From: an uncultured Nocardioides sp.
Lineage (GTDB): Bacteria > Actinomycetota > Actinomycetes > Propionibacteriales > Nocardioidaceae
Direction: 5' to 3'
Assembly: GCF_946885725.1 (NCBI RefSeq)
Contig: NZ_CAMPGZ010000148.1
Span: 1 to 10,784 of the forward strand
DNA length: 10,784 bases
A program made the translations under genes and the position numbers. Of this stretch, positions 1 to 10,784 are shown one piece after another. Every line of letters begins with the position of its first letter. Position 1 is the first letter of the stretch. The notes under the pieces were generated by a model. The model searched no databases. It was not told the DNA's origin and worked only from the letters and a program-made list of their open reading frames with translations.

Positions 1-321
1 CTCGTCGGCGTCCGTGACGTCGTCGACAAGGAGGGTCTGGACCGCGTCTTCGACGTGCTCCGCGCCGCGCACACCGAGGAGCCGACCAACTGGTCGCGCC
101 GCTACAAGGCCAACCTCGAGAAGCTGCACTCCGGCGACGTCATGAAGGTCGCCGAGGTCGTCCGCGACCTGTGGCGCCGCGAGCGTGACCGTGGTCTGAG
201 CGCCGGCGAGAAGCGGATGCTGGCCAAGGCGCGCCAGATCCTCGTCTCCGAGCTTGCGCTGGCCGAGCACACCAACGAGGACAAGGCCGAGGCGCTCCTC
301 GACGAGGTGCTCGCCTCCTGA
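1..321 (+). CDS. carD: CarD family transcriptional regulator, C-terminal part (5' end outside window)
   Basis: The open frame enters at base 1 and ends at TGA 319-321, giving 106 residues of a C-terminal domain. CarD binds the RNA polymerase beta subunit through an N-terminal RID domain, which lies outside the window, and stabilises open complexes at rRNA and many housekeeping promoters. What is visible is the helical DNA-contacting domain: an [13 protein letters not shown] segment, a [17 protein letters not shown] helix, and the very conserved [20 protein letters not shown] stretch followed by an [12 protein letters not shown] end. This ending is almost invariant in actinobacteria. A strong hairpin follows, so the gene probably ends its own transcription unit. 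In many actinobacteria carD is followed by ispD and ispF; here a flavin reductase gene and an IspD-like gene follow instead. Confidence 0.95.
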
Positions 322-476: not shown

Positions 477-1394
477 ATGACAGCTGTCGCCGCCGTCGAG
501 ACGCCCGTCTGGCGCTTCTACCGCGTGACCGTCGCCGCGGTCCGCCGGCTGAGCCCGAGCTTCGTGAGGATCACGCTGACCGGTCCGGAGCTCGACGAGT
601 TCGCCGACAACGGCTACGACCAGCGGTTCAAGCTGCTGCTGCCCGCACCCGACGGCGGCTTCGCGCACCTCGCCGAGGGCGGCGGGTCGGCGAGCTGGTA
701 CGCCGAGTGGCGGCAGCTCCCCGCCCGCCGGCGCCCGCCGATCCGCACCTACACCGTGCGCGGCGTCCGCCCCGCGCGGCGCGAGGTCGACTTCGACATG
801 GTGCTGCACGGGCACACCGGTCCGGCGTCACGCTTCGCTCTGCGGGCGAAGGTCGGCGACGAGGTCATGGTGATGGGCCCCAACAGCCGGTACGACGGAC
901 GCCACGGAGGCCTCGAGTTCCGCCCGCCCGCGGGCCACGTCGGGCCGACGCTGCTCGTGGGCGACGAGACCGCCGTTCCCGCCGTGCTCTCGATCGTCGA
1001 GCGACTGCCCGCCGACGCGTACGGCGAGGTCGTGCTCGAGGTCCCTGACGCGCTCGACATCACCGACGCGCCGGCACCCGTCGGCCTGCGGATGACCTGG
1101 CTGGTGCGCCAGGACGGCGCGTCCGGCCTTCCCCGGGGCGTTCGCGCCGCGCTGGACCGGATGGGCGTGATCGCTCCTGCGGTTGCGGATGCGGGCGACC
1201 TCGCTGACGTGGCCGGCGACGAGCCGCTCTGGGACGTGCCGGAGGACGCCCGCCCGTCCGGGCTGTACGCGTGGCTCGCCGGTGAGTCGACGGTCATCAC
1301 CGGGCTGCGCCGGCACCTGGTCCGCGACCGCGGCGTCGACCGCCGGGGTGTGGCGTTCATGGGCTACTGGAAGGCCGGCCGCCCCGAGTGCTGA
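477..1394 (+). CDS. Siderophore-interacting protein (ViuB/SIP-type FAD-dependent ferric-siderophore reductase)
   Basis: The 305-residue protein belongs to the SIP family of cytoplasmic flavoenzymes, which reduce imported ferric-siderophores to release iron. An N-terminal FAD-binding beta-barrel carries RTYTVR at residues 90-95, the flavin-binding R-x-Y-T/S motif, and HGHTGPAS at 111-118. The NAD(P)H domain begins near 158 with LLVGDETAVPA (160-170) and ends with the family signature LAGES (267-271) and GYWKAG (296-301). Length is normal for the family. ATG 477 is chosen because the family's typical N-terminal strand (FYRVTVAAVRRLSPS) starts at residue 14. No Shine-Dalgarno lies at a normal distance, which agrees with the leaderless promoter inferred just upstream. 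The iron box there indicates DtxR/IdeR control. No siderophore transporter or biosynthesis gene is adjacent, so the partner siderophore is unknown. Confidence 0.93.
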   Translation: MTAVAAVETPVWRFYRVTVAAVRRLSPSFVRITLTGPELDEFADNGYDQRFKLLLPAPDGGFAHLAEGGGSASWYAEWRQLPARRRPPIRTYTVRGVRPARREVDFDMVLHGHTGPASRFALRAKVGDEVMVMGPNSRYDGRHGGLEFRPPAGHVGPTLLVGDETAVPAVLSIVERLPADAYGEVVLEVPDALDITDAPAPVGLRMTWLVRQDGASGLPRGVRAALDRMGVIAPAVADAGDLADVAGDEPLWDVPEDARPSGLYAWLAGESTVITGLRRHLVRDRGVDRRGVAFMGYWKAGRPEC

Positions 1395-1443: not shown

Positions 1444-2064
1444 ATGAACGACGTGGGCGTTGCCGTCGGTGTCGTGCCGCTCGAGGCGCGTGGGACCTTG
1501 CCGCTGGCCGAGCTCCACGGCGAGCCGATGTTCCTCCACCCCGTCCGCGCGCTGCTCCGCTCCGGCGGCCTCGACCGCGTCGTCGTCACCGCCGACGACC
1601 CGTCCGCGGCGACGCCGTACCTCCCGCGTCGGCTGCACGTCGACGTACTCACGGCCCAAGAATTCTGGGCCGGCGTCGACCAGACCGTCGTGCTCGCCGA
1701 CCCGCTCTGCCCGCTGCTGCCTGCGGACTTCGTCGCCCGCGTCGTCGAGGAGGCGGCCGGCAGCGCGGTGGCGGGCTACCGCCCCGTGACCGACACCGTG
1801 AAGACCGTCGTCGACCAGCGCATCACCGGCACCCTCGACCGCGACCGTCTGGCGGTCGTCGCTTCACCTGTGGTGGTCCCGGCCGCCCTGGCGAAGCAGC
1901 GTCCGCCCGTCGACGACTTCGCCCGGCTCGCCGCCTGGCTGCGCGAGCGCGGCGACCTCCGCCTGGTGAAAGCGCCCTCGATGGCCCGCCGCGTCGGCGA
2001 CGAGTCCGCCCTCCGCGTGCTCGAGTGCCTCGACGAGCTCGCGCATCGCGTCCAGGAAGCCTGA
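1444..2064 (+). CDS. Degenerate IspD-family (MEP cytidylyltransferase-like) protein
   Basis: The 206-residue protein has the IspD nucleotidyltransferase fold but lacks key parts. The N-terminal strand VGVVPLEARGTLPLAEL runs where IspD normally has the CTP-binding loop A-A-G-x-G-x-R-x-G and a catalytic Lys; that loop is deleted. The substrate motif HDAARP is replaced by LADPLCP (84-90). In contrast the arm motif PVTDTVK (114-120) and the following LDR (131-133) are well conserved, and the C-terminal helices resemble IspD. A catalytically dead paralogue or a regulatory or partner subunit is more likely than a working MEP cytidylyltransferase. Position near carD is where actinobacterial ispD usually sits. 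GAGGAG (1437-1442) is only one base from ATG 1444, so GTG 1453, ten bases downstream of it, may be the real start. Confidence 0.75.
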   Translation: MNDVGVAVGVVPLEARGTLPLAELHGEPMFLHPVRALLRSGGLDRVVVTADDPSAATPYLPRRLHVDVLTAQEFWAGVDQTVVLADPLCPLLPADFVARVVEEAAGSAVAGYRPVTDTVKTVVDQRITGTLDRDRLAVVASPVVVPAALAKQRPPVDDFARLAAWLRERGDLRLVKAPSMARRVGDESALRVLECLDELAHRVQEA

Positions 2065-2267: not shown

Positions 2268-2576
2268 CTACCGCCGCACCAACGACCAGAACTCCCGGGC
2301 GAACTTCACGGGCTGGCGCAGGACGGCGCGCGGCAGCGTGGTCCAGAACCCGCGCGGGTCGCGCAGGGCGCGGTGGTAGAGGCGCTGGGGCTTCGACGCA
2401 ACCCGGTGCTCGAGATCGTGGAGGTAGGCCGGGACCAGCGCGCGCTGGGTCATCGTGAGGTGGTGGCCGCAGCGGGTGCAGCGGGCGGACTCCAGCAGGC
2501 GACCGGCGTAGTGCAGCTCGTGCTCAGTGACCAGCTCGCACCGCTCGCAGGCGAGGTCGGCGTGCTCGACGGTCAT
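2268..2576 (-). CDS. Small zinc-ribbon protein of unknown function
   Basis: This is a 102-residue protein with two CxxC knuckles, C10/C13 and C33/C36, in the arrangement of a zinc ribbon. A basic segment rich in Arg, Tyr and Leu and an aromatic C-terminus follow. There is no signal peptide or membrane helix. Its ATG overlaps the TGA of the upstream cytidylyltransferase gene (ATGA, 2573-2576), so translation is probably coupled and the two products may work together. A GAGGGG lies about nine bases before the ATG. Small actinobacterial proteins of this look carry uninformative names such as 'bh protein', as far as I recall. Function is not known; a metal-binding scaffold or nucleic-acid-binding role is possible but not shown. 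Confidence 0.8.
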   Translation of the reverse strand: MTVEHADLACERCELVTEHELHYAGRLLESARCTRCGHHLTMTQRALVPAYLHDLEHRVASKPQRLYHRALRDPRGFWTTLPRAVLRQPVKFAREFWSLVRR

Positions 2577-3358
2577 CGCGGCTCAGCCCCTCGATGACGG
2601 TGGCGTGTCCGGCCGGGGGTGGGGTGCGCGCTCTCGGAGAGGTCGTAGTCGGCCTTGGCCAGCAGCCGCTCGGCGAGGAACAGGTCCTCGGGGAAGGTGA
2701 TCTTGATGTTGCGTGCGTCGCCGGTGACGCAGTGCACCGGCACGTCCGTGTAGCGCTCGACGCAGCTGGCCGTGTCGGTGCCGACAAAGCCCTCGGCGTC
2801 GGCAGCGGTGTACGCCGACAGCAGGGGAGCGGCACGGAACGCCTGCGGCGTCTGTACGGCGACGGTGCGGTCTAGAACCTCGGCGCCGTCGTCGTGCAGC
2901 GGCGTCAGGGCCGGCTGGTCGATGACCGGCAGAGAGCCGCCGTGGGTCGCGGCAGCCTCGATGACGTCGCGGAAGAGCGCCGCCGAGGCCAGGGGACGCG
3001 CCGCGTCGTGGATCACCACCACGTCGGTCTCACCACCCTCGATCGCGGGGCGCAGCGCGCACAGCGCTCGCCACTCCGACTCGTGCCGGGACGCACCACC
3101 GGTCACGACCGTGACCGAGGTGTCGGGCAGCTCGCGTGCGAGCGTCGCGCGCACCGACTCCTGGTCGCCCTCGCGGATGACCAGCACCACGTGGCTGACG
3201 TTCGGCAGCGTCGTGGCCCACCGGATCGACCAGGTGAACACCCGGCGCCCGGCGAGCGGGAGCAGCACCTTGTTGGTGTCGTGCCCGACCCGACGCCCCT
3301 CGCCGGCCGCCAGCATCACCAGCGCCGCACGCGGTGAGGCCTGAGCGGTCGGGGACAC
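2573..3358 (-). CDS. ispD: IspD/TarI-family cytidylyltransferase
   Basis: The 261-residue protein transfers CMP from CTP to a polyol phosphate; in IspD this is 2-C-methyl-D-erythritol 4-phosphate (MEP) of the non-mevalonate isoprenoid pathway. Visible motifs are the CTP loop AAGEGRRVG (17-25) with Lys30, HDAARP (117-122), LDRT (162-165), QTPQAF (169-174), TD (194-195) and NIKIT (217-221) near the C-terminus. The IspD arm motif [P-V-x-D-T-x-K] is not kept: PVIDQPA (144-150) replaces it, so the substrate may differ, or the activity may need a partner. GTG 3358 is chosen because the family N-terminus starts there and TACGGT lies six bases upstream as a leaderless -10 element. The open frame extends upstream to an ATG at 3472, but that would cross the terminator and the preceding gene. 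A C-terminal tail rich in Arg and His (about 240-261) is extra. Its stop overlaps the next start. Confidence 0.82.
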   Translation of the reverse strand: MSPTAQASPRAALVMLAAGEGRRVGHDTNKVLLPLAGRRVFTWSIRWATTLPNVSHVVLVIREGDQESVRATLARELPDTSVTVVTGGASRHESEWRALCALRPAIEGGETDVVVIHDAARPLASAALFRDVIEAAATHGGSLPVIDQPALTPLHDDGAEVLDRTVAVQTPQAFRAAPLLSAYTAADAEGFVGTDTASCVERYTDVPVHCVTGDARNIKITFPEDLFLAERLLAKADYDLSESAHPTPGRTRHRHRGAEPR

Positions 3359-3428: not shown

Positions 3429-4751
3429 TCAGCGGCGGACCAGCGCCGCCAGGTCGTCGAGGGACGGGACACCGGTCTCCGCCATCGCGTCCTGCATCCG
3501 GCGCAGCTCGACGATCGTGGACGTCTCGTCGAGCTCTACGTCGTCGTAGGTGAGCAGGTGGTCGACCGGCACGTCGCGCTTGAGCGTCGCGCCGGCGAGC
3601 ACCCCGAGAGGTACGGCGCCGTCCCGGGCGAAGTCGGCGGCGTCGTCGATCAGGCCGCGGACCATCGTGCCGCCGACACCGTCGATCTTCTCGCCCGCCC
3701 GCAAGGGGCGCTTGCTCCTCGCGCCGACCTCGGCCGTCCAGTGCTCGGCGACCAACGACGGACGGTTGTCGAGCGCCATCTCGCACACCGTGAGCGGAGC
3801 CTCGATGCTGGCGAGGTGGTAGGGCCGGTAGAGCGAGAAGTACGGACCGTCGCCCATCTGCAGGTAGGTCATCTCGTGGTTGACGTACGGGTCGTCGGTG
3901 CGCACGACCACGAAGACGCCGGGCGCCACCGGACCGGTGCAGTAGTCGACGACGCCCGCCCGGTCGAGCACACCGCCGTCCTCCTTGAGGGCGAAGGTCT
4001 TGTGCAACTCGGGCACTGACGAGGGCGGACCGTGCATGCCGCGCGTGCTGACGCCGAGACCGGTCGTGTTGGCCAGCGCGGCCATCTCGATCATGGCCTT
4101 GGAGCCGTCGACGAACGAGCACAGCATCTTCGGGTTCATCTGCTTGGCCCGGGCACGCGCGGCGAGCGACTCGGGGGTCGCGTAGACGTCGAGCGGGTTG
4201 TTCTTGCCCTTGCCGGCACAGACGACGTCGAAGGACAGGTCTCGCGCGTAGTCGACCAGGATCTTGGTCTCGACCGGTTCGTCACCCCGGCACACGGAGT
4301 AGATGGAGCCGGTCTTCTCGGCCACCACCTTCATCAGCGCGCCGACGGTGACGTCGGACTCGACGTTGAGCGTGGCCAGGCCCTTGCCACTGAGCAGCGA
4401 CTCCAGCGCGACCCGTGCGCCGACGTCGGGAATCCCGGTCGCCTCGACGACGACGTCGAGGGGCAGTGCCCCGAGCTCGTCGATCCCGCCGAGGGCGACC
4501 GATCCGCCGTCCTCGATCACCTTCACGGCCGCGTCCGTGGTGGCGGCCTGCGCCGGGGAGATGCCGGACTGGGTCAGCGCCTCCTCCGCCCGTTCACGTT
4601 GTACGTCGAGCACGGCGGACAACGTGATGCCGGGCATCCGGAGCAGCTGGGCAGCGAAGCCGCGACCCATCTGCCCGGCGCCGACCAGGCCGACCCGCAG
4701 CGGGCGGCCGACCTCGAGCTCGCGGGCCTTCAACCGCGCCCGGTAGCTCAT
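3429..4751 (-). CDS. Homoserine dehydrogenase-like NAD(P)-dependent oxidoreductase with C-terminal SAF domain (COG4091/DRL-type)
   Basis: The 440-residue protein has an N-terminal Rossmann domain with GAGQMG at residues 24-29, a central homoserine-dehydrogenase-like catalytic region (conserved AGKGKNNPLDVY, 179-190) and a C-terminal SAF domain (about 345-408, from RPLRAGE to PVDHLL). This is the architecture of COG4091, the family that includes Brucella DRL, a DXR-like enzyme shown to make MEP from 1-deoxy-D-xylulose 5-phosphate. Many relatives are uncharacterised, so reductoisomerase activity here is an inference. It is the only dehydrogenase in the PTS operon; the usual SrlD-type sorbitol-6-phosphate dehydrogenase is absent, so it probably acts on the imported polyol phosphate. 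Its ATG overlaps the EIIA stop (ATGA, 4748-4751) and GGAGGTGA lies upstream at good spacing. A strong terminator follows. True homoserine dehydrogenase activity is unlikely in this context. Confidence 0.82.
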   Translation of the reverse strand: MSYRARLKARELEVGRPLRVGLVGAGQMGRGFAAQLLRMPGITLSAVLDVQRERAEEALTQSGISPAQAATTDAAVKVIEDGGSVALGGIDELGALPLDVVVEATGIPDVGARVALESLLSGKGLATLNVESDVTVGALMKVVAEKTGSIYSVCRGDEPVETKILVDYARDLSFDVVCAGKGKNNPLDVYATPESLAARARAKQMNPKMLCSFVDGSKAMIEMAALANTTGLGVSTRGMHGPPSSVPELHKTFALKEDGGVLDRAGVVDYCTGPVAPGVFVVVRTDDPYVNHEMTYLQMGDGPYFSLYRPYHLASIEAPLTVCEMALDNRPSLVAEHWTAEVGARSKRPLRAGEKIDGVGGTMVRGLIDDAADFARDGAVPLGVLAGATLKRDVPVDHLLTYDDVELDETSTIVELRRMQDAMAETGVPSLDDLAALVRR

Positions 4752-5158
4752 GTCGTCACCTCCGTCGCGGCGCCGCCCCGGACGATCCGGATCGTGTCGC
4801 CTACCTTCAGGAGGGGGAGCGGCTGCACCTCGACGCAGACGTCCCCCGGCAGTCGGGGGTCGGTGAGGCCGTCGGCCTTGAGATCGAGGTGTCCCAGGTT
4901 GAGCAGGTTGTCCCGGACCACCTCGCCGACGGCGAGGATCTCCAGGGACCGGCCGCCGAGGACGATCGCGTCACCGGGACGCGGTCCTTCCTCGGCCACC
5001 GTCGCCCGGTGCTGCACGGACATCTCGTGCAGCTCCTTCGGCGCGTCGGCGCCGAAGAAGATGAGCATGCCGTGGTCGAGGAAGGCCTCGACCTGGCCGC
5101 CCACCCCGGTGACGGTGCTCTCGTAGAGGACACGCGTCGCCGATGCGGTGTCGTTCAT
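4748..5158 (-). CDS. srlB: PTS glucitol/sorbitol-type EIIA component
   Basis: The 136-residue cytoplasmic protein receives phosphate from HPr and passes it to EIIB. It aligns along its length with E. coli SrlB/GutB: MLIFF (31-35), AP-x-x-L (39-43), the acceptor His50 (aligned with the SrlB phospho-His43), AVGEVV (76-81 region), NL-x-x-LGH, and LPGDVCVEV towards the end. The ATG at 5158 is eight bases after the EIIB stop. Longer upstream frames would overlap EIIB and have no family similarity. Only a weak GAGG lies about 14 bases upstream, so translation may depend on ribosomes finishing EIIB. The stop overlaps the next ATG by four bases. EI and HPr must be encoded elsewhere. Confidence 0.92.
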   Translation of the reverse strand: MNDTASATRVLYESTVTGVGGQVEAFLDHGMLIFFGADAPKELHEMSVQHRATVAEEGPRPGDAIVLGGRSLEILAVGEVVRDNLLNLGHLDLKADGLTDPRLPGDVCVEVQPLPLLKVGDTIRIVRGGAATEVTT

Positions 5159-5166
5159 CGTCGCGG

Positions 5167-5538
5167 TCACGCCTCTTCGACGTTCTCGGGCTTCACGCCC
5201 GACACGAAGATCTCCTCGGTGATGAAGGCCGCGAGCGGCCCCGCCGGGGACGTGGCGTGGATGTCGACGGTGGGCACCTTCTTCATCGGGTACACCCCGA
5301 CGCGGGCGGTGCCCCCGCAGTCGATGACGGCCACGGCGATCTTGTCGAACGGCGCCGAGCTCTTGAACCCGTCGAAGGCCTCGCCTCCGGTCAGCTCGGC
5401 GATCCGCTGCGCCACCGGGTGGATGCCACCCCCGGTGACCGAGTAGATCAGCGGCCTGTCGGCGGTCGGCGTGATGACCAGAGGGCCACCCCACCCGCCG
5501 CGGCCCTGGCTGACCTTGACCGACTTGTACTCGCTCAT
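5167..5538 (-). CDS. srlE: PTS glucitol/sorbitol-type EIIB domain as a separate protein (N-terminal half of SrlE/GutE)
   Basis: The 123-residue soluble protein corresponds to the N-terminal EIIB domain of SrlE: the GRGGWGGPL motif (12-20), then VIDCGGT (71-77) with phosphoryl-acceptor Cys74, VGVYP (80-84), PTVDIHAT and FVSGVKPENV at the end, which is where E. coli SrlE continues into its membrane domain. Here the chain stops (TGA 5167-5169) and the membrane domain is encoded by the gene just upstream. EIIB would accept phosphate from EIIA His50 and phosphorylate the polyol as it crosses the EIIC proteins. AGGAG about six bases before ATG 5538 supports the start. A 49-base gap separates it from the membrane-domain gene. 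Confidence 0.92.
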   Translation of the reverse strand: MSEYKSVKVSQGRGGWGGPLVITPTADRPLIYSVTGGGIHPVAQRIAELTGGEAFDGFKSSAPFDKIAVAVIDCGGTARVGVYPMKKVPTVDIHATSPAGPLAAFITEEIFVSGVKPENVEEA

Positions 5539-5587
5539 GGTTGTCTCCTCGTCTCCTGAAGTCGTGCCGGTGTCAGTCGGTGCCGCG

Positions 5588-6181
5588 TCAGCCGTTGCCG
5601 GCGTTGCTGTAGAGGCCGAAGCTGGCGAAGTACGCGATGACCACGGCCAGCGGTCCGGTGATCAGCCGCGAGAACAGCACGGCGGGTACGCCGACCTCGA
5701 CCGTCTCGGTCTCCGCCTCGCCGAGCGCGAGACCGACCGGGATGAAGTCGCAGCCGACCTGCGGGTTGATCGCGAACAGCGCGGGCAGGGCGTACTGCGG
5801 CGCGATGTCACCCTCACCGATCCGGGTGCCGAGCAGGACGCCGACGACCTGGGCGATGACCGCGCCAGGGCCGAGCACGGGAGAGAGCACCGGGATGGCG
5901 CAGAAGATGCTGATCGCCAGCAGGCCGATCAGGTTGGACGCCAGCGGCTCGATCAGGTGCGCCAGCCAGTCGCCGATACCGGTCTCGTTGATGATGCCGA
6001 TCAGCACGGCGATGAACGCCATGAACGGCAGGATGTTGCGGATGATCGTGTCGATGGAGTCGCGGCCGGCCTGGTAGAGCGTGCCGACGACGCCGCCGAC
6101 GCTGCGGCCGATGGTGACGAGGACCTTGTTGACCCCGTCCATCGCGGAGGTCTTGCCGGCGGGGGTGGTGGTGGCGCTCAT
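5588..6181 (-). CDS. srlE: PTS glucitol/sorbitol-type EIIC2 membrane domain as a separate protein (C-terminal half of SrlE/GutE)
   Basis: The 197-residue membrane protein matches the C-terminal half of SrlE: GRDSIDTIIRNILPFMAF (39-56), LSPVLGPGAVIAQVVGV (99-115), QYALPALFAIN (129-139), CDFIPVGLALGEAE (144-157) and VGVPAVLFSRLITG (163-176). About four to five hydrophobic segments are visible between residues 45 and 190. It forms the polyol channel with EIIC (SrlA). In E. coli this domain is fused behind EIIB; here it is a free-standing gene placed before EIIB, so the parts are split and their order reversed. The ATG overlaps the EIIC stop (ATGA, 6178-6181), and AAGGAG lies eight bases upstream. 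The sequence is intact and well conserved, so this is not a broken gene. Confidence 0.92.
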   Translation of the reverse strand: MSATTTPAGKTSAMDGVNKVLVTIGRSVGGVVGTLYQAGRDSIDTIIRNILPFMAFIAVLIGIINETGIGDWLAHLIEPLASNLIGLLAISIFCAIPVLSPVLGPGAVIAQVVGVLLGTRIGEGDIAPQYALPALFAINPQVGCDFIPVGLALGEAETETVEVGVPAVLFSRLITGPLAVVIAYFASFGLYSNAGNG

Positions 6182-6813
6182 GCCGAGGCTCCTTCGGTCT
6201 GGGTGGTTTCGGCACGGCGGGCCAGCATCCGAGCGGTGATGAACTCGGTGACGATGCCGCGGATGAGGATGACGACCATGCCGACCAGCAGGTAGCGGAC
6301 TGCCAGGTCGCCGAGGTTGCCGCCGAGGGTGGTGATGCCGGCGGCGATGCCGAGGTAGACGAACAGCTCACCCGGGTTCGCGTGCGGGAACAGACCGGTG
6401 ATCGGGTGCACGAAGCTGACGGCCGAGTCGTAGAACGCCGGCTTGTAGCGCTCCGGGAGGAAGCGACCCATCGTGTAGGCCATCGGGTTGGTCAGGAAGA
6501 AGACCGACAGCACCGGGAGCACCAGGTAGCGCACCGGGTACCAGACGATGCCGGGCCTGGCCGCGAGCTCACCGAGCTTGTCGATCTTGTCGGGGCCGAT
6601 CAGCCGGATCAGCGCGTTGACCGCCGTCAGCAGGACGACGAGCAGCGGGATGATGCCGGTGACGAGACCGACGAACACCTCGCCACCGGCCTGGAACAGG
6701 CCGATGAACCATTCCGCCGCCTTGGCGAGTGCGCCGAAGAACCCCTCCGGGTCCTCCAGCTGGGGGGTTTCGGCGGAGAACACGAGGTTCGCCGCCGTCT
6801 GGAGCAGTGGCAT
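6178..6813 (-). CDS. srlA: PTS glucitol/sorbitol-type EIIC component
   Basis: The 211-residue integral membrane protein aligns with E. coli SrlA/GutA: AEWFIGLFQAGGEVFVG (33-49), TGIIPLLVVLLTAVNALI (52-69), FFLTNPMAYTMGRFLPE (105-121), HPITGLFPHANPGELFVYLG (136-155) and YLLVGMVVILIRG (174-186). It forms the other half of the polyol permease. Compared with E. coli it carries about 25 extra residues at the N-terminus, acidic and non-hydrophobic. The start is supported by GAGGAG five to six bases before ATG 6813. It is the first structural PTS gene after a 126-base gap that contains possible operator repeats. Its stop overlaps the EIIC2 start. The substrate cannot be read from the sequence; glucitol-type permeases may take other polyols. 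Confidence 0.93.
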   Translation of the reverse strand: MPLLQTAANLVFSAETPQLEDPEGFFGALAKAAEWFIGLFQAGGEVFVGLVTGIIPLLVVLLTAVNALIRLIGPDKIDKLGELAARPGIVWYPVRYLVLPVLSVFFLTNPMAYTMGRFLPERYKPAFYDSAVSFVHPITGLFPHANPGELFVYLGIAAGITTLGGNLGDLAVRYLLVGMVVILIRGIVTEFITARMLARRAETTQTEGASA

Positions 6814-6832
6814 GATGACTCCTCATCGAGCG

Positions 6833-6867
6833 GGCCAAATCCTGGCCTTGGTGATGCTGGCTGCATC
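6833..6867 (-). promoter_or_regulatory. Inverted repeats upstream of the EIIC gene (candidate operator)
   Basis: Two short perfect inverted repeats lie in the 126-base gap between gutM and the EIIC gene: GATGC (6853-6857) with GCATC (6863-6867), and GGCCA (6833-6837) with TGGCC (6843-6847), each with a five-base spacer. The first includes GTGATGC (6851-6857), which also occurs at 8398-8404 in the regulator promoter. I could not assign a convincing -35/-10 pair here, so the PTS genes may also be read from the regulator promoter. Confidence 0.35.
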
Positions 6868-6939
6868 GTTGGGTTGGTGAGGTCTCCCTCGGTGGTGGCG
6901 TCGGTCGGGGGCCATCCCGGCCGGCGCCGTTGCGTTACC

Positions 6940-7335
6940 TCACGTGGGTGCGACGGAGCGGTTCTTGAGGTGGGTCGCCGCCTCGCGCGCGGCGTCCCTC
7001 TGCTGGGGAGTGAGGCCGGGGATCTCCCGGTCACCCTTGAGCTGGTTGACCTTCGCGCCGCGCAGCGCCGGCACCGGCCGGCCGCGGGCGAACGTCGTCC
7101 AGCCGCTGAGCGAGATCGCGTCGGCGACCTTGCCGTGGTCGTCCACGGCGATCGCCACGAAGGCGCGGCCGCCGCGGTAGCGGCGTCCGGCGACCCCGAC
7201 GCTGACGGTGCCGTGCTTGCGGAGCGCGGTCACCGAGCGGTTGAACGCCATGCTCTGCTGGTAGCTCAGGTAGAGCTGCACGAGCCAGCCGGCCACGACG
7301 GCCGCGAGCAGGACGAGGGCAGTGGTGGTGTTCAC
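6940..7335 (-). CDS. gutM: Glucitol operon activator GutM (SrlM-like)
   Basis: The 131-residue protein resembles E. coli SrlM/GutM, an accessory activator of the glucitol operon. It has a hydrophobic N-terminal segment (about residues 5-22) that could anchor it in the membrane, followed by FNRSVTALRKHGTVSVG (31-47), the AIAVDDHGKVADAISL stretch, FARGRPVPALRG (82-93 region) and a short helical tail. All these blocks have counterparts in SrlM. GTG 7335 is chosen because it overlaps the regulator's TGA by four bases (GTGA, 7332-7335), has a GAGGGG upstream, and starts the family N-terminus; a longer frame to 7437 would lie inside the regulator. How GutM works is poorly defined even in E. coli. 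Here it is paired with a SorC-type regulator rather than the DeoR-type SrlR. Confidence 0.88.
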   Translation of the reverse strand: MNTTTALVLLAAVVAGWLVQLYLSYQQSMAFNRSVTALRKHGTVSVGVAGRRYRGGRAFVAIAVDDHGKVADAISLSGWTTFARGRPVPALRGAKVNQLKGDREIPGLTPQQRDAAREAATHLKNRSVAPT

Positions 7336-8348
7336 GAGCGGTTCCCCTCGGTGGGCACTGCGGTGGCTGGAGGTACGGCGGGCTGGGGCGCGGACGCGCG
7401 CTCGCTGAGCAGCGCCCGTGCCAGGACCTCGTCGCACACCAGGGAGTCGACGATCCGGCCCCGCAGGGCGCCGAGAACACCAGGGGTCTTGGCGCGGCCG
7501 TAGGCCACCCCGACGACGTTGGGGATGCTGCGCAGGTCGTCGAGGTCGATGGCGAGGATGCGGTCGGCGACCGCGCCCTTCACCTCGTGCCCGTCCGCGT
7601 CGTAGTAGCGCGCGGCCAGGTCGCCGACCGGCTCGGCCGTCCAGAACTCCTTCTCCTCCGGCGGGGTGAGCTGCAGCGACGAGAGGATCGCGGACGACGA
7701 CCCGTGGCTGGGGGTGCCGATGCCGACGAAGGCCAGGTCGGCGCCGCGGGCGAGGTCGAGGGTCTCGCGGATCGACTGCTCGGCCAGCAGCGCGTCGCGG
7801 GCGACCGACGAGGTGAGCGTGGCCGGGGCGTGCAGGCTGACGTAGTCGGCGCCGAGGCGGGTGGCGAGCTCCCGGACGAGCTCGGCGCCGCTGATCTCGT
7901 TGCTGATCGACGACAGTCCTCCGACGAGCGGGGTCAGCTTGACGTGGTAGTCACGCTGCGCGTCGACGGCGTAGACCATCGCCTGGAGTGCGTGTCCCCA
8001 CGAGAGCGCGACGGTCATGTCGTCCCTGATCAGCTCGAGGAGCAGGCGTGCCGCCTGGAGCCCGACCTGGTCCTCCACGCGCGCAACGGCGGCCGGCGCG
8101 TGCTGGGCGACACGGACCTGGGTGAGCCCGAACCGCGCGCGCAGCTCCTCCTCGAGCTGCGGCATCCGCCCCGACGGGTCGTTGATCGAGATCTGCACGA
8201 TCCCCTGGCGCAGGGCCTCGCTGAGCATCCGCGAGACGTTGGACCGGGAGGTCCCCAGCTGCCGGGCGATGTCGGCCTGGGACTGCCGCTCGAGGTAGTA
8301 CAGGCGCGCGGCAGCCAGCAGGGTGCTGGGATCACGCGGGGCCGGCAT
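7332..8348 (-). CDS. SorC/DeoR-family sugar-binding transcriptional regulator
   Basis: The 338-residue protein has an N-terminal helix-turn-helix (about 21-45; QADIARQLGTSRSNVSRML) and a SorC-type sugar-phosphate-binding domain (about 60-315) with SWGHALQAMV (116-125), LVGGLSS (141-147), VGIGTPS (208-214), GHEVKGAV (253-260) and VVGVAYG (278-284). Family members are repressors or activators that respond to phosphorylated sugars or polyols, often the product of the pathway they control. A Pro/Ala-rich tail (320-338) is extra. ATG 8348 is supported by AGAGGTGA just upstream; the frame stays open far upstream but those residues overlap E2 and show no similarity. Being first in the transcription unit with gutM and the PTS genes, it most likely controls them. 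The promoter carries a palindrome, so autoregulation is likely. Confidence 0.92.
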   Translation of the reverse strand: MPAPRDPSTLLAAARLYYLERQSQADIARQLGTSRSNVSRMLSEALRQGIVQISINDPSGRMPQLEEELRARFGLTQVRVAQHAPAAVARVEDQVGLQAARLLLELIRDDMTVALSWGHALQAMVYAVDAQRDYHVKLTPLVGGLSSISNEISGAELVRELATRLGADYVSLHAPATLTSSVARDALLAEQSIRETLDLARGADLAFVGIGTPSHGSSSAILSSLQLTPPEEKEFWTAEPVGDLAARYYDADGHEVKGAVADRILAIDLDDLRSIPNVVGVAYGRAKTPGVLGALRGRIVDSLVCDEVLARALLSERASAPQPAVPPATAVPTEGNRS

Positions 8349-8349
8349 T

Positions 8350-8381
8350 GTCACCTCTGTGCAGAGCGTCGTCACATCTGT
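8350..8381 (-). repeat. Direct repeat ACAGANGTGAC, 21-bp spacing
   Basis: GTCACCTCTGT at 8350-8360 and GTCACATCTGT at 8371-8381 (as read on +) differ by one base and start 21 bases apart, about two helix turns. The upstream copy lies at the predicted transcription start and the downstream copy contains the Shine-Dalgarno of the regulator gene. They may be tandem binding sites for the regulator. Confidence 0.45.
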
Positions 8382-8387
8382 CCGAGC

Positions 8388-8416
8388 ATCAGAGCATGTG
8401 ATGCCGATCACGTCAA
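8388..8416 (-). promoter_or_regulatory. Promoter of the regulator gene with a palindrome in its spacer
   Basis: On the - strand a -35 element TTGACG (8416-8411) and a -10 element TCTGAT (8393-8388) are separated by 17 bases. The spacer holds a palindrome, GTGAT (8398-8402 on +) and ATCAC (8407-8411) with a four-base centre, overlapping the end of the -35 element. A protein bound there would block RNA polymerase, so it is a candidate operator for the SorC-type regulator. The predicted 5' leader is about 33 bases. Confidence 0.6.
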
Positions 8417-8449
8417 GACTCTGCATGCCGGACATGTCGGGTCGCCCCC

Positions 8450-9667
8450 TCAGCCCTGCTCGGTCGCGGTGAGCCGGCGGGCGAAGGCGTCGAGCAGGCC
8501 GGCCGCGTGCGCGCCGTCCGCCACGCGATGGTCGACCGTGAGACCGGCTGTGATCGTCAGCGCCGAGCCCACGCCGCCGGGGACGGCCACCGGGCGCTGC
8601 TTGATCGCGCCGAGCGCGAGGACGCTGGCCTGCGGCGGTGTCACGAGCGCCTGGAAGCGGTCGACCCCCATGCCGCCGAGGTTGGACAGCGAACCGTTGG
8701 CCACCCCGAGGTACGCCGGGTCCAGGCGGCCACTGTGCGCGGCGGCCACGACCTGCTTGACCTCCGCGTCGAGCTCGCGCGGGTCGCGCGCATCGGGCTC
8801 GACGAACACCGGGACCAGCAGGCCGCCCTCGGTCGCCACGGCCAGGGCCACAGCGGGTGGGCCACTGGGCACGGCCGCCCCGCGACCGTCGAGGGCGGCG
8901 CTGTCCCAGCGGCTCAGCAGGTCCGGCACGTCGCGCAGTGCGCCGGCGTACGCCTGCAGCAGCGAGGTCGTCCAGGACACGCCTTGCCGGCGGCGCGCGA
9001 CGTCGACCGCGTCGAGTGCGAGGTCGCGCCAGACGGTGAACTGGGGGACGCCGGCCGACTCGGTCATCTTGCGGGCGACGGCCGCGCGGATCATCGCGCC
9101 GCGGTCCTTCTGCGGCTTGGCGGCTGTCGCGGTGGTAGCCGACGTGGCCGCGGGGGCGGGACGGCGGACCTTGTCGACGTCGGCGACGGTGACGAGCCCG
9201 TCCGGCCCGGTCCCGGTGACCGTGGCGAGGTCGATCCCGCGCTCGCGGGCGAGGCCGCGGGCGCGGGGAACGGCGGCGACGGGACCCGACCGCGCGGGGA
9301 CGGCCTTCCACTCGGCGGAGTCGTCGGGGTGGTCGGAGGCGAGCGTCTCGGCATCGGAGGTCGGTGCTGCGGCCGCGGGCTCGGGCTCCGGCTCGGGTGC
9401 GAGCAGGTCGCCGAGACCGAGCCCGTCGTCCTCGCCCTCGAGGTACCCGATCGGTTCGCCGACCGCGACGGTGCCGGACTCGGCGACGATCTCGACCAGG
9501 GTGCCGGCGGAGGTGCTCTCGACCTCCATGTCGACCTTGTCGGTCAACACCTCGCAGACGACGTCACCCGCCGCGACGCGGTCGCCGACCTTCACCAGCC
9601 AGGATGAGACCTCGCCCTCGGTCATGGTCATCGACATCTTCGGCATCAGGATCGGGATGCGCGCCAT
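8450..9667 (-). CDS. Dihydrolipoamide acyltransferase (E2) of a 2-oxoacid or acetoin dehydrogenase complex
   Basis: The 405-residue E2 passes an acyl group from E1-bound TPP through a swinging lipoyl arm to CoA. One lipoyl domain (about 1-80) carries the lipoylation Lys44 in LTDKVDMEV. An acidic/Ala/Pro linker (EPEPEP, 92-97) leads to a peripheral subunit-binding domain (about 133-168, from VPRARGLARERGID) and the catalytic domain (about 188-405), which has the active-site HRVADG at 380-385 (HxxxDG motif). Start ATG 9667 is two bases after the E1-beta stop, with AAGGA upstream. Which substrate the complex uses cannot be told from these motifs; acetoin-type, pyruvate-type and branched-chain complexes look alike. 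There is no clear terminator between this gene and the regulator promoter 34 bases downstream, so read-through into the PTS operon is possible. The catalytic domain is slightly short but has its key residues. Confidence 0.9.
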   Translation of the reverse strand: MARIPILMPKMSMTMTEGEVSSWLVKVGDRVAAGDVVCEVLTDKVDMEVESTSAGTLVEIVAESGTVAVGEPIGYLEGEDDGLGLGDLLAPEPEPEPAAAAPTSDAETLASDHPDDSAEWKAVPARSGPVAAVPRARGLARERGIDLATVTGTGPDGLVTVADVDKVRRPAPAATSATTATAAKPQKDRGAMIRAAVARKMTESAGVPQFTVWRDLALDAVDVARRRQGVSWTTSLLQAYAGALRDVPDLLSRWDSAALDGRGAAVPSGPPAVALAVATEGGLLVPVFVEPDARDPRELDAEVKQVVAAAHSGRLDPAYLGVANGSLSNLGGMGVDRFQALVTPPQASVLALGAIKQRPVAVPGGVGSALTITAGLTVDHRVADGAHAAGLLDAFARRLTATEQG

Positions 9668-9669
9668 GC

Positions 9670-10692
9670 TCAGGAGTCCTTCATCAGCGACCGAGCGGCG
9701 TCGACGATGCCGTCGACCTGCGGGACCGCGGCCGACTCGAGCTGCGGCGCGTAGGGGATCGGGACGTCGAGACCGCTGAGCCGGCGGATCGGCGCGAGCA
9801 GCCGGTAGATCGCCGGTGACTCGACGATGCGGGAGGCGATCTCCGCGGTGAAGCCGACGTGCCCCGGCGCCTCCTGCACGAGCAGTGCCCGGCCCGTGCG
9901 TGAGACGTCCTCGAGGATCGGCTCGTCGTCGAGCGGGCTCAGCGTCCGCGGGTCGATGACCGAGGCGTCGATGCCGTCGGCGGCGAGCCGATCCGCCGCC
10001 TCGAGACTGCGCTGCACCATCACGCCGGTCGCGACGATCGTGACGTCCTTCCCGCGACGGCGTACGGCGGTCTTTCCGAGCGGGACCCGGGCCGCTCCCT
10101 CGGGGACCGGGCCGGACGTGCGGTAGAGGAGCTTGTGCTCGAGCACGATGACCGGGTTGGGGTCGTCGATCGCCGCGAGCAGCAGGCCCTTGGCGTCCTC
10201 GGCCGTCGCGGGCATCACGACCTTGAGGCCCGGCACGTGCGCGAACCACGCCTCGAGGCTCTGCGAGTGCTGGGCGGCGGCCCCGGTGCCGGAACCGAGC
10301 GGGGCGCGCAGCACCATCGGCACCTCGGCCGCACCCCCCAGCATGAAGTGGATCTTGGCGGCCTGGTTGACGATCTGGTCCATCGCCTGGCAGGTGAAGT
10401 CGGAGAACTGGATCTCGACGACCGGGCGCATGCCGGCCAGCGCGGCGCCGACGGCGGCGCCGACGATGCCGAGCTCGGAGATCGGCGTGTCCCGCACACG
10501 GTCGGCGCCGAACCGGTGGACGAGGTCGCCGGTGACGCCGAAGGCGCCGCCGTACACGCCGATGTCCTCGCCGAGCAGGAACACGCGCTCGTCGGCGGTC
10601 ATCGCCTCGGCCAGTGCCTCGCGGACGGCCTGGCTGTAGCTGATCACCCGCTGCTGGTCGGCGGCGGCTGGGGCGGTCGTGGTCAGGGTCAT
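9670..10692 (-). CDS. 2-oxoacid or acetoin dehydrogenase E1 component, beta subunit
   Basis: The 340-residue protein is the beta half of a TPP-dependent alpha2beta2 E1 that decarboxylates a 2-oxoacid, or cleaves acetoin in the AcoAB case, and hands the acyl group to E2. Visible blocks are the N-terminal [13 protein letters not shown] (19-31), [14 protein letters not shown] (41-54), [15 protein letters not shown] (68-82) with the conserved Glu73, EIQFSDF (93-99), and the C-terminal transketolase domain with TIVATGVMV and [12 protein letters not shown]. Length is normal. ATG 10692 is preceded by AGGAG at nine bases. It follows the E1-alpha stop by 19 bases and precedes E2 by two, forming a compact operon. 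Acetoin, pyruvate and branched-chain enzymes cannot be separated here without alignment. Confidence 0.92.
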
Positions 10693-10711
10693 GGCGGCGG
10701 CTCCTGCGCGG

Positions 10712-10784
10712 TCAGGCGGTGGCGGGTGCGTAGACGGCGTCGAGCAGGTCGTCGGGGCGGGCGTCGGGGGCGGCGTTGGCGGCC
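10712..10784 (-). CDS. 2-oxoacid or acetoin dehydrogenase E1 component, alpha subunit, C-terminal end (5' part outside window)
   Basis: On the - strand a frame enters from the window edge and ends at TGA (10714-10712), giving 23 residues, [20 protein letters not shown] and three more. The ending [14 protein letters not shown] is typical of E1-alpha (PdhA/AcoA) C-termini. Position directly before E1-beta, with a 19-base gap, fits the usual alpha-beta-E2 gene order. The evidence is short, so the call rests mainly on context. Confidence 0.7.

Follow-up and report, generated by a model that had tools for sequence, protein, structure and literature searches.

On the minus strand of a 10,784-nucleotide stretch of DNA from an uncultured Nocardioides sp. 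(contig NZ_CAMPGZ010000148.1, assembly GCF_946885725.1; this whole stretch is hereafter called the window), the genes of a glucitol-type phosphotransferase system (PTS) stand in one run with those for an oxidoreductase resembling the Brucella enzyme DRL, or DXR-II, for components (E1 and E2) of a 2-oxoacid or acetoin dehydrogenase complex, and for IspD, the cytidylyltransferase of the 2-C-methyl-D-erythritol 4-phosphate (MEP) pathway. We propose that this system makes MEP from imported 2-C-methylerythritol, and that the MEP would either pass to IspD or be oxidised by DRL to 1-deoxy-D-xylulose 5-phosphate (DXP), which E1/E2 would then cleave; this reading as a whole has, in our estimate, a probability of about 60%. 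A preliminary description of the window, made from its letters alone, had already joined PTS import, a DXP/MEP step and E1/E2 cleavage into a catabolic pathway. Its core idea gains from the conserved co-occurrence of these genes, from the presence of ispD, from the exchange of DRL for the reductoisomerase DXR-I in one actinobacterial order and from the absence of the DXP synthase DXS with the PTS in two orders. What has to be amended is the purely catabolic character that it gave to the system, which in relatives of the window seems to feed isoprenoid synthesis and is thus probably not just catabolic.

The run extends from 10784 down to 2573 and consists of the following genes.

10713..10784, minus strand: C-terminal end of E1-alpha, 23 codons and the stop (its translation matches the end of the E1-alpha open reading frame, or ORF, of Nocardioides iriomotensis, L001:3112-4098)
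9670..10692, minus strand: E1-beta, 2-oxoacid/acetoin-dehydrogenase type (PF02779 and PF02780; NF006667, 366.8 bits, cut-off 321)
8450..9667, minus strand: E2 dihydrolipoyl acyltransferase (PF00364, PF02817 and PF00198: lipoyl, E3-binding and acyltransferase domains)
7332..8348, minus strand: SorC-family regulator (PF04198, E 2.7e-60)
6940..7335, minus strand: GutM (PF06923, E 3.8e-18)
6178..6813, minus strand: SrlA, glucitol-type PTS EIIC (PF03608, E 3.3e-77; NF049923 above its cut-off)
5588..6181, minus strand: SrlE C-terminal part of a split EIIBC (PF07663, E 6e-48)
5167..5538, minus strand: SrlE N-terminal part of the same split protein, EIIB (PF03612, E 1e-53)
4748..5170, minus strand: SrlB, EIIA (PF03829, E 6.2e-30)
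3429..4751, minus strand: DRL/DXR-II-like oxidoreductase (PF21135, E 1e-65; PDB 3upl, E 4.4e-94)
2573..3358, minus strand: IspD, MEP cytidylyltransferase (PF01128, E 2.9e-40, 138.8 bits against a cut-off of 27)

Four adjacent gene pairs overlap by 4 bases, and ispD lies directly downstream of DRL on the same strand after a gap of 70 bases. The PTS is complete in the window, with EIIC, both parts of EIIBC and EIIA (PF03608, PF07663, PF03612, PF03829). SrlE is divided into two genes (5167-6181), that for the C-terminal part standing ahead of that for the N-terminal part; in locus L037 and the Rubrobacter-type loci L046-L050 no separate ORF for the N-terminal part was seen. The run shares homologues of SrlA, SrlE, SrlB and GutM with the gut/srl PTS operon of Escherichia coli, from which it differs in its split SrlE, its SorC regulator, its DRL and E1/E2 genes and the lack of SrlD: a Pfam scan of 14 ORFs of the window showed no SrlD-type glucitol-6-phosphate dehydrogenase. 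With the acetoin and pyruvate dehydrogenase complexes it has in common E1-alpha (a tail in the window, whole in L001, and assigned by PF00676 in L012), E1-beta, a lipoyl E2 and the thiamine diphosphate chemistry that these would perform on a CH3-CO head. The PDB matches of E1-beta are beta chains of 2-oxoacid and pyruvate dehydrogenases (best E 3.3e-83), and the E1-alpha of three relatives scores below the pyruvate dehydrogenase equivalog cut-offs; what sets the window's E1/E2 apart from the known complexes is the linkage to a PTS and DRL and the proposed substrate, DXP. The same-strand gene list of the preliminary description, and its remark that SrlD is missing, are borne out by the strand and the Pfam matches, with the corrections that E1-alpha is represented only by its 23-codon tail, that SrlE is split and that ispD had been overlooked.

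A scan of genome contigs for DRL yielded 53 related loci, across which the PTS, E1/E2 and DRL occur jointly. In 39 of the 53, SrlA is found close to DRL, and 35 of these 39 also have E1-beta, while the remaining four (L002, L005, L010, L022) end ahead of that gene; the co-occurrence of E1/E2 with the PTS in related genomes, which the preliminary description had named as a check, is in this way confirmed. Because the gene set is conserved, a chance neighbourhood was rejected. The gene set is found in Nocardioides, Klenkia, Modestobacter, aquatic actinobacteria (the label aquatic, or freshwater, is taken from names, among them Planktophila and Nanopelagicales, and from mentions of lake samples; L011 is labelled groundwater), Aquiluna, a Micrococcales strain and Rubrobacteraceae. 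In nine of the 53 loci DRL is unaccompanied by PTS genes, and none of the nine has E1/E2 (among them, L018 has just 504 bases upstream and L044 retains the SorC gene); on a DRL tree that omitted L043 and L044, DRLs without a PTS are interspersed among the PTS-linked ones, and three changes are needed to account for them. Of the 319 genomes of two orders taken together, 22 have SrlA, and DRL adjoins it in 21 of these; in the twenty-second, G130, the contig stops just past SrlB. The run might also be taken for an ordinary glucitol-type PTS operon that stands beside MEP-pathway genes by chance, as the glucitol names of the PTS families would allow, but this very improbable view is already disfavoured by the absence of SrlD from the window ORFs, by the conservation of the gene set out to the Rubrobacter loci, by the adjacency of DRL and SrlA just given and by the way in which the absence of DXS, described below, tracks the PTS.

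The DRL of the window is 91% identical to that of N. iriomotensis and 41% identical to the Brucella enzyme, the match to 3upl spanning residues 7-424. It resembles DXR-II/DRL (PDB 3UPL, 3UPY) in its Pfam family, in this identity and in Lys191 and Lys193, two of three substrate anchors, which are conserved; a further likeness is that it replaces DXR-I in one actinobacterial order, that of genome G010. Our 201 genomes of this order are a sample of a larger group, and the genome sets of both orders studied were requested at a completeness of at least 80 or 85%. Of the 201, 32 have DRL and 161 have DXR-I, leaving 40 without DXR-I; only 1 of the 32 DRL genomes has DXR-I, vs 160 of the 169 others (p 3e-27, kinship ignored). 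The sole genome with both is G196, and G195, which has SrlA and a DRL truncated at the end of its contig (L051), was kept outside the 32. DRL and DXR-I are therefore almost mutually exclusive in this order, and DRL stands in for DXR-I. Together with G011, a whole chromosome (L016, 1,431,431 bases) with DRL and no DXR-I, this near-exclusion makes it very probable that in this clade DRL converts DXP and MEP into each other.

The same order ties the PTS to DXS. SrlA is found in 18 of its 201 genomes and, with G252, which was counted as having the PTS on account of SrlB and the SrlE N-terminal part beside DRL near a contig end (SrlA itself was not found), there are 19 PTS genomes. DXS is absent from 22 of the 201, namely from 13 of the 19 PTS genomes vs 9 of the 182 others (p 1e-10, kinship ignored). 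It is absent from none of the 14 genomes that have DRL and no PTS found (the surroundings of DRL being unseen or cut in three of these, G165, G213 and G323), and from 9 of the remaining 168. A second order, that of G016, is represented by 118 genomes, of which four have SrlA; none of the four has a strong DXS match, and neither do 9 of the 114 without SrlA (p 9e-5, kinship again ignored; G078, of this order, in which there is an end fragment matching at 4.7e-13, was tallied as lacking DXS). On a tree of the 48 DRLs for which the DXS state was known and enough sequence was available (the Rubrobacter loci, L037, G165, G195, G213, G128 and G130 being omitted), that state changes seven times, at least five of the changes being forced by well-supported branches, and PTS genes are present in all 16 of the DXS-less rows. 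Each of the five DXS-less cluster genomes (G010, G016, G017, G018 and G019) has IspG, as do 28 of the 30 genomes in the set to which they belong. The exchange with DXR-I and the absence of DXS with the PTS tie the cluster to the DXP/MEP node. Read simply, these patterns would mean that the PTS supplies a metabolite at this node, so that DXS becomes dispensable where the PTS is kept and is needed where it is lost.

Two further cases of DXS absence were considered as evidence and dropped. In the family of Micrococcales 31B (G022), 16 of 44 genomes, G022 included, are also without DXS, and for the Rubrobacter-type genomes (G026-G028) the same is true of the entire sample of their order: a search with PF13292 (E up to 1e-20) detected DXS in none of the 31 genomes of the order of G028. 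Two of these genomes, G027 and G028, have IspG and DXR-I despite the undetected DXS, and there may be another source of DXP in this order.

E1-alpha and E1-beta might themselves be a DXP synthase, replacing DXS by joining pyruvate and glyceraldehyde 3-phosphate to give DXP, in which case the PTS would import something unrelated to MEP. E1-beta does resemble the C-terminal half of DXS (TIGR00204, 6e-20), E. coli mutants of aceE, the E1 of pyruvate dehydrogenase, are reported in PMC3424233 to make enough DXP to bypass DXS, and, since E1 accompanies the PTS, the absence of DXS tracks E1 too and co-occurrence cannot separate this explanation from ours. It would, however, leave no role for the E2 acyltransferase and the entire PTS, and 13 genomes (G001-G007, G009, G012, G020, G021, G023, G025) hold the cluster's E1-beta together with a DXS of their own; we regard it as decidedly unlikely.

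IspD closes the run in the window, where it scores 160.7 bits with TIGR00453, below the equivalog cut-off of 181.3; its alignment conserves the nucleotide-binding loop and the regions of the catalytic motifs. N. iriomotensis (G001), a close relative, has no strong IspD match other than the gene that corresponds to the window's IspD (3.4e-40; the next are 6.2e-8 and 2.1e-6). An IspD match lies 3' of DRL in 33 of the 53 loci, at a distance of some 2.5 kb in L014 and L020; 16 have none although the sequence continues, and 4 are cut off. The system shares ispD and, on our reading, the same two metabolites with the start of the MEP pathway (DXS, DXR, IspD), from which it would differ in being fed from outside and does differ in that DXS is not found in many of its aquatic members.

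Given a transporter of a polyol family, an IspD that uses MEP and a DRL that is kept even in operons of genomes with their own DXR-I, where it would be superfluous for making MEP, the formation of MEP from 2-C-methylerythritol fits best. The glucitol-type PTS would import 2-C-methylerythritol and yield MEP, for which there would be two exits. One would lead through IspD into isoprenoid synthesis. In the other, DRL would oxidise MEP to DXP and E1/E2 would attack DXP at its CH3-CO-CHOH head, with acetyl-CoA and glyceraldehyde 3-phosphate as products; this cleavage we infer from the chemistry of acetoin dehydrogenase and from the aceE precedent taken in reverse. The first steps of the MEP pathway would then run backwards, as the catabolism of a branched sugar alcohol in a soil-type actinobacterium.

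For the cofactor of DRL there is a hint in the NAD(P) fold, of which the second beta-strand ends in Asp in every DRL row readable there, where the Brucella enzyme has SARR. Asp at that position favours NAD, and this suggests NAD over NADPH, as would suit an oxidation; the same Asp is found in DRLs accompanied by IspD only, and by itself it gives no direction for DRL. It nonetheless bears on the main rival for the imported metabolite, according to which the PTS would bring in 1-deoxy-D-xylulose and make DXP from it, E1/E2 would burn the DXP and DRL would reduce it to MEP. Such a scheme explains the absence of DXS with the PTS and the replacement of DXR-I by DRL equally well, and it lets DRL work in its established, biosynthetic direction, as described in PMC3847144. 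We think it unlikely, in that the PTS belongs to the polyol (glucitol) family, DRL is retained in the operon of the ten genomes of the window's own kin that have DXR-I, where it would be unneeded, and the Asp suggests NAD rather than the NADPH of a reduction.

Several observations weigh against the import of 2-C-methylerythritol as we propose it. DXS is retained in 6 of the 19 PTS genomes, and all ten of the DXS-less genomes of known assembly type are metagenome assemblies. G196 is without DXS yet retains DXR-I. The Aquiluna, Micrococcales 31B and Rubrobacter loci show no linked IspD. All ten genomes of the window's kin (G001-G008, G029, G030) have DXS as well as DXR-I, so that the argument from DXS loss does not bear on them. 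In the DRL protein, Thr229, which PMC3847144 describes as absolutely conserved in DXR-II and as anchoring fosmidomycin together with Lys191 and Lys193, is Ala in the window, L001-L010 and L045 (11 of 51 locus rows), and Thr in the other 40. The same source gives Gly121, His250, Arg320 and Val351 as typical of DXR-II; the window keeps the first three and has Thr for Val351, a position that is substituted in almost all locus rows, while Gly121 is found in 46 of the 51 rows and His250 in 14. Beside these points, where DXS is kept in a PTS genome it is divergent in five cases of six (G012, G152, G168, G229, G255), matching the profile less strongly (E about 1e-79 to 1e-87), and the DXS of G012 is split at profile positions 193-233.

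As regards the comparison with the catalytic residues of Brucella DRL that the preliminary description had proposed, the two lysines are kept, and the Ala at 229 touches the loss of active-site residues that, by its own account, would speak against its proposal. By family and identity the protein may be assigned as DXR-II-like; given the deviations at Thr229, His250 and Val351, either branch can be placed only tentatively in the published DXR-II group in the strict sense. The window's DRL is unlike DXR-II also in its place within a PTS operon, in the beta-2 Asp and in the proposed oxidation of MEP. The retention of DXS and DXR-I in the ten genomes of the window's clade, Nocardioides and Geodermatophilaceae, is the reason for thinking that there the system is probably catabolic only, and its substrate may be somewhat shifted. 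This clade could have moved to the phosphate of another branched or deoxy polyol, for example methylthreitol or a C6 analogue, with the same chemistry; the restriction of the Thr229 to Ala change to this clade, and the retention of both enzymes, would agree with such a move, against which stand an otherwise unchanged operon and an IspD still beside DRL, and on balance it appears rather unlikely.

A gene resembling PTS enzyme I was matched in 13 of the 53 loci (weakly in L008 and, so far as seen, L010). The two tested, those of L012 and L046, are enzyme I (TIGR01417, above cut-off); they are encoded inside the gene run (L012:4331-6046, L046:17573-19267), which makes for a more self-contained PTS. 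Two loci have an extra EIIC of galactitol type (PF03611) within the cluster or next to it (L046:11490-12908, L006:3936-5774). L014 and L018, labelled Bifidobacterium breve, are from metagenome assemblies; their DRLs fall with those of aquatic actinobacteria in the tree, and the labels are probably wrong. To the left of the gene run the window contains the following.

1-321, plus strand: CarD C-terminal domain
477-1394, plus strand: siderophore-interacting protein
1444-2064, plus strand: degenerate IspD-like ORF without the nucleotide-binding loop (PF01128, 35.6 bits), near CarD and facing the true IspD

An ORF resembling the degenerate IspD-like protein faces IspD also in L001-L010 and L012, and a 102-aa ORF without a Pfam match (2268-2576, minus strand) lies between the two IspD-like genes of the window.

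2-C-Methylerythritol is made by plants and bacteria, and 2-methyltetrols are an isoprene oxidation product in aerosols. Among the matches listed from the open PMC literature, catabolism of methylerythritol or its uptake as a nutrient was not found, and in the available text of PMC6529453, on 2-methyltetrols, the word biodegradation occurs in the reference list only. If our reading is true, the cluster would encode a degradation pathway for 2-C-methylerythritol and would be a biological sink for plant and atmospheric methyltetrols. It would equally be an uptake route and external entry point into the MEP pathway, making DXS, described in PMC13001223 as the rate-limiting step, dispensable in nature; such a bypass would be relevant to inhibitors of the first enzymes of the pathway. 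Bacteria that already carry DXR-I would, moreover, have a reason to possess a DXR-II-type gene. More tentatively, and with the chances in our view slightly against it, the free-living aquatic actinobacteria that lack DXS (and DXR-I) would draw all of their isoprenoids from imported 2-C-methylerythritol, and the same operon would let them and their soil relatives degrade it through the reversed chemistry of DXR and DXS. These aquatic relatives may then depend on an imported compound for their isoprenoids, a natural methylerythritol dependence.

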